Shown piece after piece: positions 21,343 to 34,553 of a stretch of DNA of 38,484 bases; positions within the stretch are counted from its first letter, which is position 1, and each line of letters opens with the position of its first letter. The translations under genes and the position numbers were made by a program. The notes under the pieces were generated by a model. That model ran no database searches, was not told the DNA's origin, and was given only the letters and a program-made list of their open reading frames with translations. The stretch is taken from assembly GCA_003154775.1 (NCBI GenBank), contig PMES01000047.1, positions 1 through 38,484 of the forward strand, written 5' to 3'. The stretch comes from Acidobacteriota bacterium. GTDB lineage: Bacteria > Acidobacteriota > Terriglobia > Acidiferrales > UBA7541.

Positions 21343-22767
21343 TTACGTCTCCGTTTCCGCGCGTTCGCTGCCGTATTCCTTCAGCTTGTTGTGCAGGGTC
21401 TTCAGGCTCACGCCCAGCAGTTCCGCCGCGCGCGTCTTGTTGTTTCCCGTGGCCGCCAGCGTCTGCACGATCAATTCCTTCTCCATCATGTCCACTGTCG
21501 TCCCGATCGGAAATTTGAGGATGGATAGATCGCTCGGGCTTTTCGCCGACACTCGCCCGAACTCCCCCGGCAAACTCGCCCGCGAAATCAAATCTTTCTC
21601 GCTCATGATCGCCGCGCGCTCCAGAATGTTTCGCAATTCGCGGACGTTTCCCGGCCACGTGTGGCTCATAAAGATGTCCAGCACTTCCGCGCCGATCCCT
21701 CGCACGCTCTTCCCATGCTTCGCATTGATGTCGCGCAGCATGTGCTCGGTCAGCAGCGGGATATCTTCCTTGTGTTCCCGCAAAGGCGGCAGGTGAATGT
21801 GAAACACATTCAGCCGGAAATACAGGTCCTGGCGCAACTGCCCGCTGGACACAGCTTGCTCCGGATCCTTGTTGGTCGCCGCAAGCACGCGCACGTCCAC
21901 CGGCGTCTCCACCTTGCTTCCCAGCCTTCGTACCTTGTGGTCTTCCAGAACGCGCAGCAGCTTCGTCTGCGTCGGCGCAGGCATCTCCCCGATTTCGTCC
22001 AGCAGCAGCGTGCCGCCGTCCGCCAGTTCGAAGCAGCCAATCCGCCGCTCCGCCGCGCCCGTGAACGCACCTCGCTCATGCCCGAAAATTTCGCTCTCCA
22101 TCAGCGTTTCGGGTATCGCCGAACAGTTGATGGCCACAAAAGGCCCGCCCGCCCGCGGCGATAATTTATGGATGGTGCGCGCCACAACTTCTTTTCCGGA
22201 CCCCGTTTCGCCCGTGATCAACACCGAAGCCGAACTCGGCGCCGCCATCTCGATCACCCGCATCACGTCCTGCATCGGCTTCGTTCCGCCCACCAGTTCT
22301 CCAAGCCGCCCCGCCTCGCGCAATTGCCTCTGCAATACCGCCAGGTTCTGCGCGTCGCGCGCCTTGCTTAACGCGCGGTCCAGCAGCGCCCGCAGCACCG
22401 GCCCCTTCAGCGGCTTTTCGATGTACCAGAACGCCCCCGACTCAATCGCCGCTACCGCGCGCTCCTCGCTTCCCTTTCCGGTAATGATGATCGCCGGTAC
22501 ATCCTTCAGCTCGTCGCCCAACTGCTTCAGCAGGTCCAACCCGTTCATCCCCGGCAATTCCACGTCGGCGATCACCGTATCCGGTTGGAAATTGGAAAAT
22601 TTCGCCAGCGCCTCTTCGGCACTCGCCACGCCCAGCACTTCATAGCCCCACCTCTGCAGCAACTGCTCGTAACCCTTCCGCGCGTTGTCTTCGTCCTCGA
22701 CAATCAGCACGCGGTCTCTGTGTTCTCCGGTTTCCACCGTGCGTACGGCTCGTGTCTCGTCTGTCAT
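21343..22767 (-). CDS. sigma54-dependent response regulator (NtrC/AtoC family)
   Basis: The frame extends to 22836, but ATG 22767 (GAGG upstream) starts a protein of 474 aa that begins just before the receiver domain. Receiver: VLIVEDED (20-27), phosphoacceptor Asp68 (TVIADVELPG), Lys118 (YIEKPL). AAA+ domain: Walker A GETGSGKE (186-193), GAFTGA (233-238), Walker B LLLDEIGEM. The C-terminal Fis-type helix-turn-helix reads NNKTRAAELLGVSLKTLHNK. With GAFTGA intact it should open sigma54 promoters. It leads the operon with the PAS kinase. Upstream is the 0.9-kb repeat-rich gap. Confidence 0.92.
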   Translation of the reverse strand: MTDETRAVRTVETGEHRDRVLIVEDEDNARKGYEQLLQRWGYEVLGVASAEEALAKFSNFQPDTVIADVELPGMNGLDLLKQLGDELKDVPAIIITGKGSEERAVAAIESGAFWYIEKPLKGPVLRALLDRALSKARDAQNLAVLQRQLREAGRLGELVGGTKPMQDVMRVIEMAAPSSASVLITGETGSGKEVVARTIHKLSPRAGGPFVAINCSAIPETLMESEIFGHERGAFTGAAERRIGCFELADGGTLLLDEIGEMPAPTQTKLLRVLEDHKVRRLGSKVETPVDVRVLAATNKDPEQAVSSGQLRQDLYFRLNVFHIHLPPLREHKEDIPLLTEHMLRDINAKHGKSVRGIGAEVLDIFMSHTWPGNVRELRNILERAAIMSEKDLISRASLPGEFGRVSAKSPSDLSILKFPIGTTVDMMEKELIVQTLAATGNNKTRAAELLGVSLKTLHNKLKEYGSERAETET

Positions 22768-22870
22768 GCGGCTTCGCCTCGTCTGAATAAATACCACGAA
22801 TGGAGCAACTTCGGGTGGGCGATTCGACTCTAACAAGCCCCCTCCCGCTTGCCAAGCCCGCCGTCACCCT

Positions 22871-22924
22871 CGTGGCACACTCACTCCTGCTTGCCCTGAG
22901 CGGCGAAGGAACTGTGCTCTTGGG
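22871..22924 (+). repeat. 54-nt dispersed repeat, copy 2
   Basis: Reads CGTGGCACACTCACTCCTG at its start and ACTGTGCTCTTGGG at its end; 48 of 54 positions equal the copy at 15282-15335. It is followed by further CTCTTGGG-type words (near 22945 and 22984) of the same family. The copy stands about 100 nt upstream of the sigma54-activator gene, as the other copy stands just downstream of the other activator gene. Confidence 0.75.
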
Positions 22925-23095
22925 TTTCTCCTTGCCTCTGCTCTTGGGTTCTTCTTGCGTGTGTAGGGACACGGAACACGCGCCCTCTTGGGGTCCGCCC
23001 CGTGTAGCGCAGGGCGAGTCCGCGCCTGGCCGCCGCTTGCTGGCGGGAGCCCTGCGGCTTTTCTCCTGGGTTTGCCTTTTCTCTTCGTGCGGGTC

Positions 23096-23179
23096 CAGCG
23101 CCGTAGGCGCGGCATAGGTTAGCCCAGCCCGTCAGGGCTGGGCCCATCAGCAACCGCAATCGGCAGCGCCGTAGGTGCG
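23096..23179 (+). repeat. repeat pair around a strong palindrome
   Basis: CAGCGCCGTAGGCGCG (23096-23111) recurs as CAGCGCCGTAGGTGCG (23164-23179). Between them CCCAGCCC (23123-23130), loop GTCA, GGGCTGGG (23135-23142) make a perfect 8-bp stem. No coding frame with supporting signals covers this part of the gap. Confidence 0.6.
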
Positions 23180-23202
23180 CCACAATCCGTTCCGCTTCTC
23201 CT

Positions 23203-23243
23203 GTGCGATGAACTCTGCCCCATCGCACGTCTTTTGTGCGATG
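23203..23243. promoter_or_regulatory. GTGCGATG hairpin plus third half-site
   Basis: GTGCGATG (23203-23210) and CATCGCAC (23221-23228) form a perfect 8-bp inverted repeat with a 10-nt loop, and a third GTGCGATG follows at 23236-23243. The block lies 60 nt upstream of the near-consensus promoter at 23306 and could be an operator or a hairpin at the 3' end of another transcript. By position only. Confidence 0.35.
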
Positions 23244-23305
23244 AATCCCTCTTCTCCCTCGCCCGTTTCTCCCGCAAAAAATCCACTTTCCCTTGAATTA
23301 TTATC

Positions 23306-23334
23306 TTGACAAGTCCTTCCTGATAGACTATACT
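23306..23334 (+). promoter_or_regulatory. near-consensus sigma70 promoter
   Basis: TTGACA at 23306-23311 and TATACT at 23329-23334 with exactly 17 nt between them: a perfect -35 and a five-of-six -10. The expected start is near 23341. It has no gene directly behind it; an intrinsic terminator ends transcription after about 45 nt. Confidence 0.75.
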
Positions 23335-23340
23335 CTCTCT

Positions 23341-23389
23341 CGTGAATGCTTGCGTCCAACCGCCGGGCCTCGCCCGGCTTTTTCTTTTT
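23341..23389 (+). ncRNA. candidate short RNA ending at an intrinsic terminator
   Basis: From the predicted start near 23341 the sequence runs about 20 nt and then GCCGGGC (23362-23368), loop CTC, GCCCGGC (23372-23378) followed by TTTTTCTTTTT (23379-23389), a textbook intrinsic terminator. Promoter and terminator are only about 28 nt apart. The product would be a tiny RNA of about 45 nt or an attenuated leader. A GTG at 23342 opens a 102-codon frame, but it reads through the terminator and the AATCAACAC repeats and is not convincing as protein. Confidence 0.4.
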
Positions 23390-23468
23390 ATGCCCCAATC
23401 TCGAATCCGCGCTCCACTCTGCCGTCTCGCCCCACGCAATCCGCGCCCGATCTCCCTAAACGCTCCAC

Positions 23469-23610
23469 AATCAACACATCCATCAGAACCCTTCCCCAAC
23501 CCCTTCAGAATCAACACATACACAACTGCATCAAAACAAATGACCTACATCCCTCTTGAAATCAACACTTACAACACCCAATTCCCGCAACTCCCCCGAA
23601 ATCATCACTT
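23469..23610 (+). repeat. composite AATCAACAC repeat, left copy
   Basis: AATCAACACAT at 23469 and 23509, AATCAACACTT at 23560, AATCATCACTT at 23600: spacings 40, 51 and 40 nt. The word CCAACCCCT precedes the second unit. A second set in the same orientation is at 24840-24950, on the other side of the lower-GC gene. Spacers are C-rich and otherwise unlike coding DNA. Confidence 0.7.
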
Positions 23611-23704
23611 ATGCGAAATCCACTTTTCTCTACCGCCTCTGGCTCTTTAGCGTTTAATCCGGGATTGCATACTCCCGCAAGGGGAGGTCTATAATGCCCA
23701 AGGA

Positions 23705-24721
23705 ATGTGGAAACACATTAGGAATGCCATCGGCTGGGAAGGACTATCCTTTGTAACCCTCGCAAGTTTTGCATTCGGCTTTCTTTTTGCCAACAAGTTT
23801 CTTCCTGCTAAGGTTTGCTTTTGGCTGGCAGCTGCCTCACTCATTCTTCGTTTTGGTGCATATGCATCGAAAGAATTCGGGAAGATACGAATCTGGGCTG
23901 GCCTCATATTTTCATTAGTTGTTCTAAGCATCCAAATATTTATTGTTACTCCCTGGATTGACCGTGAAAAAATTGAGGTGGAGAGAGTGGCAAAGGCAAC
24001 ATCGCCAGAAATTCACATCACTCACGGGGGAGATTTAACGTCTTCACAGCCACATCAGCAAGATTTGAGCGAAATTCAGAAGGCTCTTGAAGAGATTAAG
24101 AAAAATACTGCACGCAAAGGGCAGCTCATCATTTCAGCGGCTCAAATGGCTGTTATTAAGGAGTTGGATGCCTTCATTGTAGAAGATGATGAGATGTCGC
24201 TTAGAAAGAAATTTGGTTTTCCGGAGATGGTGGAGAAAAACATCAGGGGGAATATCAATAATCTTCATCGATATAGAAGAACGGGGCAACTGACGCATTA
24301 CGTGTTACCCCCAGGTGAAACACTGATCGACAGTAGATTCGCTAATGGGCACATTCGTCGTCAAGGTGGGGCATTCTTGGCCGATTTCGATGACACAACG
24401 GTTTTCTTTATCCTGCTCCCTAAAGATCATTCAGATGCCGTGGCTCATCTCAAGAAAATCGAGAACTCGCCCGAATTACCGACATCGATTCTCGGGACCT
24501 TGAAAGAGTTCGATGCTGCGGTATCACAGAACAATACTTATTTGATCGAGGTGCAGAATGCTGCAATGAATGAAAGTCATGATTATTTTCTTGAGTACGA
24601 CAATCCCGGCTCGCCATATTTTCACAAAATAGACGACATTTACTTGGGTAAGTTTATCCAGCTAAGGCCGAAGGCTGACAAGGTTAGGGATGCGATTCGC
24701 AAGTTTCTAGGAGTGAACTAG
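23705..24721 (+). CDS. three-helix membrane protein with cytoplasmic domain, unknown function
   Basis: 338 aa. Three hydrophobic helices at about 12-30, 34-52 and 62-82, a charged linker, a short coiled-coil (LSEIQKALEEIKKNTARKG, about 121-139), and a soluble domain to the end (for instance ISAAQMAVIKELDAFIVEDD, then GGAFLADFDDTTVFFILLP). No family recognised. Hand counts give 23/60 G+C at 24061-24120 and 31/60 at 24301-24360 against 36/60 at 21361-21420, and codon use is less GC-biased than the neighbours, suggesting recent acquisition. Composite repeats flank it on both sides. AAGGA abuts the ATG with no spacing and TATAAT is at 23690-23695, so the start is uncertain; the mRNA may be leaderless. 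Confidence 0.75.
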   Translation: MWKHIRNAIGWEGLSFVTLASFAFGFLFANKFLPAKVCFWLAAASLILRFGAYASKEFGKIRIWAGLIFSLVVLSIQIFIVTPWIDREKIEVERVAKATSPEIHITHGGDLTSSQPHQQDLSEIQKALEEIKKNTARKGQLIISAAQMAVIKELDAFIVEDDEMSLRKKFGFPEMVEKNIRGNINNLHRYRRTGQLTHYVLPPGETLIDSRFANGHIRRQGGAFLADFDDTTVFFILLPKDHSDAVAHLKKIENSPELPTSILGTLKEFDAAVSQNNTYLIEVQNAAMNESHDYFLEYDNPGSPYFHKIDDIYLGKFIQLRPKADKVRDAIRKFLGVN

Positions 24722-24839
24722 GCGGGCGGGTGGCGAACACACAGACTGTTTGGACCAAAGTGGATGCCGTACCCTTTGGGGTTTGTTTTTCCAAGGGGTG
24801 CGGGTTTAGTGATAACTGTCACCCCCAATTGCCCCAAGA

Positions 24840-24950
24840 AATCGGTATCCTAAACCGCCTCCTCCAACCCCTATTGGAATCAACACTTCCAAATCTGTAT
24901 GAAAACAAGCCACTTCATCCACCTGTAGAATCACCACTTACAAGAAACAC
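24840..24950 (+). repeat. composite AATCAACAC repeat, right copy
   Basis: A degenerate AATCGGTATCC at 24840, AATCAACACTT at 24878 and AATCACCACTT at 24929, the last two 51 nt apart exactly as in the left copy, again with CCAACCCCT before the middle unit. The 51-nt units of both sides (23509 and 24878) share GCATCAAAACAA/GTATGAAAACAA and CATCC. The rest of the gap 24722-25152 holds a pair of CACACATGC words (about 25042 and 25080) but no gene I can support. Confidence 0.65.
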
Positions 24951-25152
24951 GGGGAGGGGGGCAACACCTACTCTTACTCTCTTTGCCTCCTTTGCTTTCT
25001 TCTCCTTCTCATTCGCACTCGCCGCCAAGTCGAATCCTTCTCACACATGCAAGTCATTCTTCCGTAAGTCCCATCATTTCCACACATGCGTAAAAACACG
25101 TGAGAATAGTGTCGGCGCGCCGACCTTCCCGCCTCTGCATTCCACCACTCTT

Positions 25153-25887
25153 CTACTCCTTCACCAGATACAACGCCCTTCCCAGTTCCAACTCCAGCTT
25201 GGCGCCCTTCGCCAGATCCAATTCCTGCCCGCGCCCCGCTTCCATCAAATACGCCTCCAGCGCCCCGAGCGCCGCAGCTTGGGCTCCCTCTTTCGTGTTC
25301 TTGTCCTTCACGCCCTTCAGCGCACCAACGGCCGCGCCAGTCGCCGCCGCCTGTCCTGCGTCCTTCTGAGAGCCGCCGCGCCCCTCGATCACGCCCTCCT
25401 GCGTCGCGCCCGCCTTGATGCTGTGATCCCCCGGCACAGCCACCACGTCCGCCACGATCGGCAGCCTCCCAAACTTCGTGTGAATCTCGTCAAACGTCAG
25501 CCAAATCTTCGCCCGCCCCGTGAGTCCCGCCGGCTCCACGCGGCTGATGTGTCCTGTGATCACCGCCCCGGCCGGCAAGTAGATGCCCTGCCCCGCCTCC
25601 AGCGGCTCCAGCGTGCGCACGCGAAACGCCTGGTTCTGCCGCGCCGCCCGCGTCGTCATTCCCTCCTCCAGCTTCACCAGGAATCGCGTCCCGGGCACCA
25701 CGCCATACACCTCTAGCGGCAACCCGTGCCGCTCCCCATCGGCCACGCGTCTCTCGGGAGGCTTCTCGGCATCTTGCACCTCCGTCGCTGCCGGTTCGCG
25801 CGGCTCTTGCGCGGCCACGGCTCCAGGCATCCACAGTCCTCCAGCCATGGCACCCAACACCACCCAGTTCCTCACGAGTCTTTTCAT
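25153..25887 (-). CDS. exported VirB10/TrbI-like beta-barrel protein (paralogue 2)
   Basis: ATG 25887 with a very strong AGGAGGGGGAG upstream; the open extension to 26004 is ignored. 244 aa. Signal peptide about 1-26 (WVVLGAMAGGLWMPGAVA, cleavage before QEP). The mature part has the same architecture as the protein at 17876-18658: GTRFLVKLEEGMTTRAARQN, IYLPAGAVITGHISRVEPAG, GLTGRAKIWLTFDEIHTKFG, an Ala/Gly-rich segment (AGQAAATGAAVGALKGVKD), and LDLAKGAKLELELGRALYL at the end. Its glycine-zipper is shorter and more Ala-rich. Isolated from other secretion genes. An envelope or outer-membrane-associated role is inferred. Confidence 0.75.
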   Translation of the reverse strand: MKRLVRNWVVLGAMAGGLWMPGAVAAQEPREPAATEVQDAEKPPERRVADGERHGLPLEVYGVVPGTRFLVKLEEGMTTRAARQNQAFRVRTLEPLEAGQGIYLPAGAVITGHISRVEPAGLTGRAKIWLTFDEIHTKFGRLPIVADVVAVPGDHSIKAGATQEGVIEGRGGSQKDAGQAAATGAAVGALKGVKDKNTKEGAQAAALGALEAYLMEAGRGQELDLAKGAKLELELGRALYLVKE

Positions 25888-33357: not shown

Positions 33358-34553
33358 AGCATTTCACAAGAAAACGCATGAACTTGCTGGGCCTTGTGGC
33401 CATCGCTGCCATCGCAGGTCCGCTCAGTGTTTTTGTCGCGGGGTGCGGCGCAGGGCCGGGTGAATCCGAATCCAACATGACTTCGTTCACGTCCTCCGAA
33501 TCGAAGGCAGACACCGCCGAACTCTTCAGCGTTCCGAAGGAACAGATGTCTCACATCCAGATTGTGGCCGCGGAAAAAGGACCTCTTCCGCGCACGCTCC
33601 GCCTGACGGGCGCGGTGGCGTACGACGCATTTGCAACCACCCCCGTTTTCGCGGCGATTGGCGGACCAGTCCACGAAATCCTCGTGGCGCCCGGCCAATT
33701 CGTGCAGGCCGGCCAGCCGCTCCTCACGGTTACCAGCCCGGACTACTCCGCGGCCCGCTCTGCCTACATCAAAGCCAAGGATTCCTACGCCCTCAGTGAA
33801 AGACTTTATACACGCGCGCAAGATCTCTTCGCCCACGGCGCCATCTCCGAGGCCGATCTCCAGCAGGCGGAATCCAACCAAACACAGGCTCACGCGGACA
33901 TGGAATCTTCCGCGGATGCCCTCCGCGCCCTGGGTCTGAAGGATCCGGAAGCCGTACTAAAACCGTCCGTGCAATCCACCGCACAGATACCAGTTATCGC
34001 TCCGGTCACCGGCGAAATTGTGGAACGGCTCGTGGGCCCCGGGCAACTTCTCGTTGGGGGCACGACCCAGTGTTTCACCATCTCCAATACCAACACCGTC
34101 TGGGTCCTCGTGAATGTTTTCCAGAGCGATCTCCCCTTCGTGCACATCGGAGACACCGTCGAAATCAACACCGAATCCTACCCCGACCTTTTTCACGGGA
34201 AGATTTCCTATATTGCGCCTGCGCTGGATCCCACGACGCGAACCCTGCAAGCGCGCATCGTAACCCAGAATCCCGGGAAGAAATTGAAGCGCGACATGTT
34301 CGTGACCACGCTCGTGGGCGCTGGGGCCATTCCCGACGCCATCACGGTTCCCGACGCCGCCGTACTGCGCGACACGGAAAACCAACCCTTTGTGTATGTG
34401 CAGACGAATGCCAACCAGTTTGCGCGGCGCGTGGTCACGCTCGGGAGCAGTAGCAAAGGCCGCACGCAGATCACCAGCGGCCTGAAAGAGGGCGAACACG
34501 TCGTCGGCGACGGCAGCCTGTTCCTGCAATTCAAGAATTCCCTGCAGCATTAA
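33354..34553 (+). CDS. RND efflux periplasmic adaptor lipoprotein (CzcB/CusB-like)
   Basis: 399 aa. N-terminal lipobox VAGC with Cys31, so it is probably anchored to the inner membrane by lipid. The barrel-sandwich (lipoyl-like) domain begins VAYDAFATTPVFAAIGGPVHEILV, split over about 86-110, and returns as PVIAPVTGEIVERLVGPGQL; between them is the helical hairpin (YIKAKDSYALSERLYTRAQD). The beta-barrel (WVLVNVFQSDLPFVHIGDTV) and membrane-proximal domain (FVYVQTNANQFARRVVTLG) follow. No His- or Met-rich metal-binding extension is present. It bridges the pump and the outer-membrane channel. Overlaps the channel gene by 4 nt and lies 24 nt before the pump gene. Confidence 0.92.
   Translation: MKHFTRKRMNLLGLVAIAAIAGPLSVFVAGCGAGPGESESNMTSFTSSESKADTAELFSVPKEQMSHIQIVAAEKGPLPRTLRLTGAVAYDAFATTPVFAAIGGPVHEILVAPGQFVQAGQPLLTVTSPDYSAARSAYIKAKDSYALSERLYTRAQDLFAHGAISEADLQQAESNQTQAHADMESSADALRALGLKDPEAVLKPSVQSTAQIPVIAPVTGEIVERLVGPGQLLVGGTTQCFTISNTNTVWVLVNVFQSDLPFVHIGDTVEINTESYPDLFHGKISYIAPALDPTTRTLQARIVTQNPGKKLKRDMFVTTLVGAGAIPDAITVPDAAVLRDTENQPFVYVQTNANQFARRVVTLGSSSKGRTQITSGLKEGEHVVGDGSLFLQFKNSLQH

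Follow-up and report, generated by a model that had tools for sequence, protein, structure and literature searches.

The locus described here raises the question of whether a foreign-looking gene that lies between two copies of a short dispersed repeat was brought there with the help of the repeat, or whether the repeats only mark a place where DNA is readily gained and lost. The DNA analyzed (the window) is a stretch of 38,484 nucleotides, contig 31 of a 4.63 Mb acidobacterial genome assembled in 150 contigs (G000). A preliminary description had proposed that repeat copies hold or mobilize an accessory gene of low GC content at this position, possibly an insertion hotspot. The features needed for the argument are as follows.

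23280-23611, plus strand: left block with promoter, leader, terminator-like hairpin and four-unit array, defined by local alignment with L113 (3783-4115) of the relative G035; the island stops just past unit 4 (CACTTA).
23306-23334, plus strand: sigma70-like promoter from sequence, TTGACA (23306-23311), 17 nt, TATACT (23329-23334).
23362-23389, plus strand: terminator-like hairpin ahead of the array, GCCGGGC/GCCCGGC followed by a T-rich run, from sequence.
23469-23610, plus strand: left array, units at 23469, 23509, 23560 and 23600 (spacings 40, 51, 40), without G-rich tail, from sequence and array model.
23612-24859, plus strand: cargo segment without homology to its G035 counterpart, from alignment.
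23705-24721, plus strand: cargo gene P0001 (338 aa), low in GC, without a convincing family and absent from 60 relatives.
24860-24961, plus strand: right array, units at 24878 and 24929 (spacing 51) with G-rich tail CGGGGAGGGGGG at 24950-24961, from sequence, array model and alignment.

Exact copies of AATCAACAC form the first three units of the left array and the first unit of the right array, while the last units are the variants AATCATCAC (23600) and AATCACCAC (24929). The window contains five exact AATCAACAC matches where 0.17 are expected, a number reached in none of 100 shuffles; the fifth is a lone match at 34163. The two arrays share their orientation and CCAACCCCT stands ahead of a unit on either side (23493 and 24864), as first described. 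The unit spacings given for the left array and the right-hand spacing of 51 also proved correct, but a further right-hand spacing of about 38 did not, the sequence at 24840 (AATCGGTAT) agreeing with the unit at five of nine bases and being no unit. A direct repeat at 23574-23590 and 24821-24837 (82% over 17 nt) was considered and set aside as too weak for use. No Rfam family was found at the arrays, either at gathering thresholds in 10 sources or in a permissive search of 22700-25200. Matches elsewhere were Acido-Lenti-1, two tRNAs at other loci and a chance-level snoU25 inside P0001 (E 0.48). The Acido-Lenti-1 RNA (RF01687, 60 bits; 23097-23142, minus strand) adjoins the left array and is without counterpart in the G035 alignment, and by eye pieces resembling this stretch seem to be dispersed across these genomes.

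P0001 is the sole long coding-looking ORF between the arrays and it is accessory, foreign-looking cargo. Its GC content is 0.441 (GC3 0.46), and the 695 other overlapping 1017-bp windows used for comparison had a mean of 0.604 (sd 0.018) and a minimum of 0.553, so that the low GC content noted for the gene (44% against 60% in its surroundings) lies below all of them. The gene was present in one of 61 genomes, its own; 35 of the other 60 belong to the same genus. It had no match in plasmids or in viral contigs, the latter in a search sensitive to close relatives only. Family searches gave best E values of 0.14 (Pfam), 0.028 (NCBIfam), 0.027 (PADLOC) and 0.016 (PHROGs), none of them convincing, and a single-sequence structure model was unusable (pLDDT 43). 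The label of membrane protein was not upheld; its basis is one strong hydrophobic segment (residues 63-81) together with N-terminal helices in a low-confidence model. No transposase model matched P0001; the cargo may still be a transposase-less derivative of such an element.

Turnover of the cargo at this locus is directly supported by comparison with G035, the closest relative examined, since the same two arrays enclose different genes there and homology breaks at the array edges. The orthologous locus has flanks which match at 95% on the left and 88% on the right, and between these flanks the only homology islands are 23280-23611 and 24860-24958 (two units and tail). The left block of G035 retains TTGACA, with a -10 sequence that is TACTAT/TATAAT-like, and the hairpin arms GCCGGGC/GCCCGGC are conserved. 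The cargoes of the two genomes have no similarity. That of G035 has a GC content of 50% and consists of a small ORF, one of 196 aa and one of 276 aa with a sub-threshold resemblance to DUF3800 (E 0.067). With an identity of 0.87 to each other, and none above 0.74 to any further copy compared, the left arrays are clear orthologues. The right arrays are probably but not surely orthologous, their identity being 0.85 while the G035 right copy and the copy on contig 5 of G000 are 0.83 identical. DNA on the outer sides of the islands (about 22866-23279 and 24959-25145) is also non-homologous, and the arrays may therefore be conserved islands in fast-changing DNA.

The same junction was then surveyed in the 20 of 34 further genus genomes in which both flanking genes lay near each other on one contig. 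The gap measured 148-355 bp in 12 of them and 567-5780 bp, with various genes, in the remaining eight; together with the different cargo of G035 this means that relatives do not always carry the same gene here; had they done so, it would have spoken against the proposal. Using the unit model, units were found at the junction in G028 only. The gap varied in seven relatives without detectable units, and we therefore consider the junction to be plastic with or without the repeat. In G028 a 317-aa gene (GC 0.503 against 0.597) lies directly upstream of the array, and its product has no similarity to P0001. By eye, a related G-tailed repeat stands at the junction in G023, and an XRE-type antitoxin-like ORF of 106 aa was seen in the G021 gap (L151). 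Another junction that differs is L262 (G035:C3) as compared with L264 (G000:C83), where G000 has a zinc-finger/array unit and G035 instead 3.6 kb of other genes plus an incomplete, diverged (73%) right-flank copy.

The repeat itself is a dispersed family of Candidatus Acidiferrum/Acidoferrum, encountered so far in this genus only. An array model built from the seven copies of the source genome retrieved there the seven strong copies and a few weaker matches, and at E <= 0.01 it matched 31 of 61 genomes; all 31 are among the 36 genus members, and the 25 genomes from outside the genus gave no match. The highest count in one genome was 65, weak and partial matches included. The unit pattern AATCANCACTT occurs 29 times genome-wide against once for the reversed pattern, and many of the 29, when inspected by eye, stand alone in sequence that looks coding. 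When named species genomes were scanned with the pattern, 35 stretches were obtained, from MAGs labelled Candidatus Acidiferrum typicum, Acidobacteria bacterium and Acidobacteriaceae, with three stretches in one Betaproteobacteria-labelled MAG which is G006, a genome placed in the genus. In the fetched loci the arrays carry two, three or four units at a distance of mostly exactly 51 bp and sometimes 40, with 48-50 bp and others in the minority. Arrays are mostly single and without cargo, and none matched phage or plasmid sequence. RNAalifold on seven copies gave no conserved fold (0 pairs). No description of the repeat was apparent among the papers listed by literature searches, a negative which is weak because sequences cannot be searched in text. 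In G008, arrays on contigs C86, C110, C74, C20, C322 and C11 come close to the contig ends, to a few hundred bases or less, perhaps through assembly breaking at repeats or through population variants.

One site bears on the mobility of the repeat. The array on contig 5 of the source genome is missing in G035 (G035:C18), where the flanks are 95% and 97% identical and the difference is one 121-bp block that contains the array with its tail and about 30 bp besides. CCGCCT is found at both ends of the block as a 6-bp direct repeat, and no inverted repeat was seen by eye, both at this single site. From this clean presence/absence difference we conclude that the repeat behaves as a small mobile unit; the difference could be an insertion in one genome or a deletion in G035. 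The promoter region upstream persists in G035 with TTGACA changed to TTAACA, and an unrelated extra stretch of 196 bp was present further upstream in that genome.

Flanks long enough for a census of surrounding signals were available for 55 of the 68 distinct arrays; a three-unit locus (L103) was counted twice and the left array of the window fell below the score cut. A G-rich tail was present within 50 bp of the array in 44 of 55 cases against two of 55 for a control stretch. The promoter pattern TTGAnn-16/18-TAnnnT was found on the strand of the array, no more than 400 bp upstream, in 24 of 55, while the controls gave 1/55 (opposite strand), 4/55 (downstream) and 4/55 (further upstream). By eye the arrays also have a leader motif in common. 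Two other sequences were noticed near arrays, a second conserved class (ACCGTCCCTCCGACCAGTTGTCCCGGCGTACCCC and variants) seen by eye upstream of arrays without a TTGACA promoter in G034 (L078, L085, L089, L091, L094), and a motif near GTTATNGTTAACYA just past the G-rich tail in several genomes (L103, L105, L107, L110, L115, L116), a GTTAAC-like motif being present in 14 of 55. We rejected the array as a regulator of one downstream gene, as neighbor orientations disagree (13 +/-, 10 +/+, 9 -/- and 4 -/+ among the 36 of 40 loci at which crude gene calling placed both neighbors).

At three loci from three genomes (L025, L098, L107) promoter-like sequence and the array are separated by an ORF that begins with a Cys/His zinc-finger-like stretch. 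The family gave four matches in G000, one in G035, seven in G028, nine in G034 and 11 in G003 (E <= 1e-5), and in the class-wide sample it was present in four of 61 genomes from two genera (E <= 1e-6). Among 38 loci, 14 of them read as sequence and placement judged partly by eye, at least seven had an array or related repeat following the ORF, and at least six had it between the promoter and the ORF. These units (L025, L098, L107, L214-L251) combine promoter-like sequence and a shared leader with arrays on either side, and some members have stop codons. In the AlphaFold model of the protein (mean pLDDT 78, pTM 0.43) a short finger region is followed by helices, no solved fold in the PDB was matched (best E 3.5), and its zf-primase similarity (E 1.2e-4 to 0.016) is under the Pfam cut-off. 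The protein is a possible unit-binding partner of the arrays.

Whether arrays bracket cargo as a rule was judged from their pairing. The seven copies of the source genome include one pair where 0.026 would be expected for a pair this close, whereas for the 118 matches in G006, G028 and G008 a count by eye gave two pairs on the same strand at a distance of 0.3-6 kb, against 2.6 by chance. The cargo bracketed in G028:C29 proved to be a transposon of IS1595 type located within an array, with a transposase (PF12762, E 6.9e-31), a 186-aa passenger, matching terminal inverted repeats (none of 300 shuffles as good) and an 8-bp duplication, CTTTAACC. The pair in G006:C28, around a 1150-aa ORF, by eye resembles a duplication that includes about 170 bp of downstream flank. 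With pairing in these genomes no more frequent than chance, and with a transposon and an apparent duplication accounting for these two cases, a general ability of the repeats to mobilize cargo is unsupported. Of the preliminary proposal, an accessory, foreign-looking cargo that turns over at this locus is supported, but a general mechanism is not, arrays being mostly alone.

The explanation we prefer, to which as a whole we give a little less than an even chance, is that of a mobile BOX-like repeat with a cargo interval exchanged by way of the arrays. The bracketing repeats are copies of a genus-restricted, modular BOX-like interspersed repeat of two to four direct AATCANCACTT units and a G-rich tail, which behaves as a small mobile unit, and P0001 would be an accessory gene, gained recently, in the plastic intergenic gap that separates the genes of a response regulator and a secreted protein. 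The common ancestor of G000 and G035 would already have had two arrays in this gap, and at least one lineage would later have had the interval between them replaced through an exchange ending at the arrays. We infer that the most likely route was recombination, with the arrays as homology patches, with DNA bearing other cargo beside another array copy. The repeat family, the swap, its breakpoints and the site where one array is present or absent were observed directly, and a part of the arrays in the exchange goes beyond these observations. In favor of the explanation are the different cargo between both arrays in G035, the orthology of the left arrays, the restriction of P0001 to one genome, the dispersed genus-wide family, the clean 121-bp site, the further lower-GC gene ahead of an array at the G028 junction and the improbably close pair in the source genome. 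Counted against this explanation are the chance-level pairing in the three other genomes, the doubt about orthology of the right arrays, the non-homologous outer DNA, the weak inverted match in G035 and the possible deletion of the contig-5 array in that genome. The inverted match touches on a competing possibility, somewhat improbable in our judgement, in which the arrays landed in a tolerant gap and are landing marks only, the cargo having arrived by unrelated routes such as transposons with passengers or illegitimate insertion. The G028:C29 transposon and the G006:C28 duplication both fit such a history, as does the variable gap in eight of 20 relatives, seven of them without detectable units. 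The ends of the G035 cargo have an inverted match equalled in four of 300 shuffles, which overlaps the array itself and could hint at transposon ends. The window cargo, however, was without a terminal inverted repeat, its best inverted match of 9 bp being equalled in 94 of 300 shuffles, and the breakpoints fall at array edges on both sides.

It is doubtful that the array is mainly a regulatory or RNA element of small transcription units, such as a site bound by the zinc-finger-like protein in its own and other transcripts, with mobility and bracketing incidental. The enrichment of the upstream promoter pattern, the shared leader, the arrays 5' or 3' of zinc-finger-like ORFs and the near-fixed 51-bp spacing all favor this, but it leaves the cargo swap unexplained, no conserved RNA fold was found, and one array is missing in G035 though the promoter region stays. 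An integron-like platform, in which the left promoter and array are the receiving site for cassettes of a gene and a 3' array, and the zinc-finger-like protein or some recombinase recognizes the units, we regard as very unlikely. At this locus three different cargoes (G000, G035, G028) do lie directly upstream of a same-orientation array, the left promoter points towards the cargo, and zinc-finger-like ORFs are directly upstream of arrays at L025, L098 and L107. Yet an attC-like conserved fold is missing in the seven copies, among the 40 arrays examined it was rare for a same-strand gene to end beside the array, and some zinc-finger-like ORFs are downstream of the array. We hold it to be slighter still in probability that the arrays are the recombination sites of a new Candidatus Acidiferrum gene-exchange platform, in which promoter and array swap cargo carrying a 3' matching array and the zinc-finger-like family is the unit-binding partner.

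Known systems offer partial parallels. Integron cassettes hold genes between same-orientation attC repeats downstream of a promoter, an arrangement shared by the window gene, but the repeat here lacks a conserved fold and occurs as dispersed single arrays instead of cassette arrays. The G028:C29 element was assigned to its family by Pfam and set against the usual IS1595 features; it is such a transposon with passenger, while the window cargo has no transposase gene or detectable terminal inverted repeats. Because the features tested were absent, we do not assign the window cargo to the IS1595 elements or the array to integron sites. REP/RAYT systems combine repeats with a palindromic fold and a Y1 transposase partner, whereas our repeat is without a conserved palindromic fold and its candidate partner is zinc-finger-like, not a Y1 transposase. 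The two are alike in having short dispersed repeats and a candidate partner gene beside some copies (PMC2817692). The BOX elements of Streptococcus pneumoniae have variable internal modules between end modules, occur in many copies, are nearly confined to close relatives and cluster with other repeats (PMC3049150). The present repeat resembles them in its composite build with variable module number, its many dispersed copies, its restriction to close relatives and its clustering with other repeats; it differs in its direct units mostly 51 bp apart, its G-rich tail, the lack of a conserved RNA fold and its ties to promoter-like units and the zinc-finger-like family, with a few pairs bracketing cargo.

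The locus lets accessory-gene turnover in soil acidobacteria that are hard to grow be followed at base level, and it has led to the description of a dispersed family of repeats whose units keep a nearly fixed spacing, which is linked to promoters and for which a candidate partner protein can be named. Should the arrays be active exchange sites, they would provide a route of gene capture outside integrons and transposons; if they are not, they still make up a BOX-like family that can be traced through 31 genomes of the genus.
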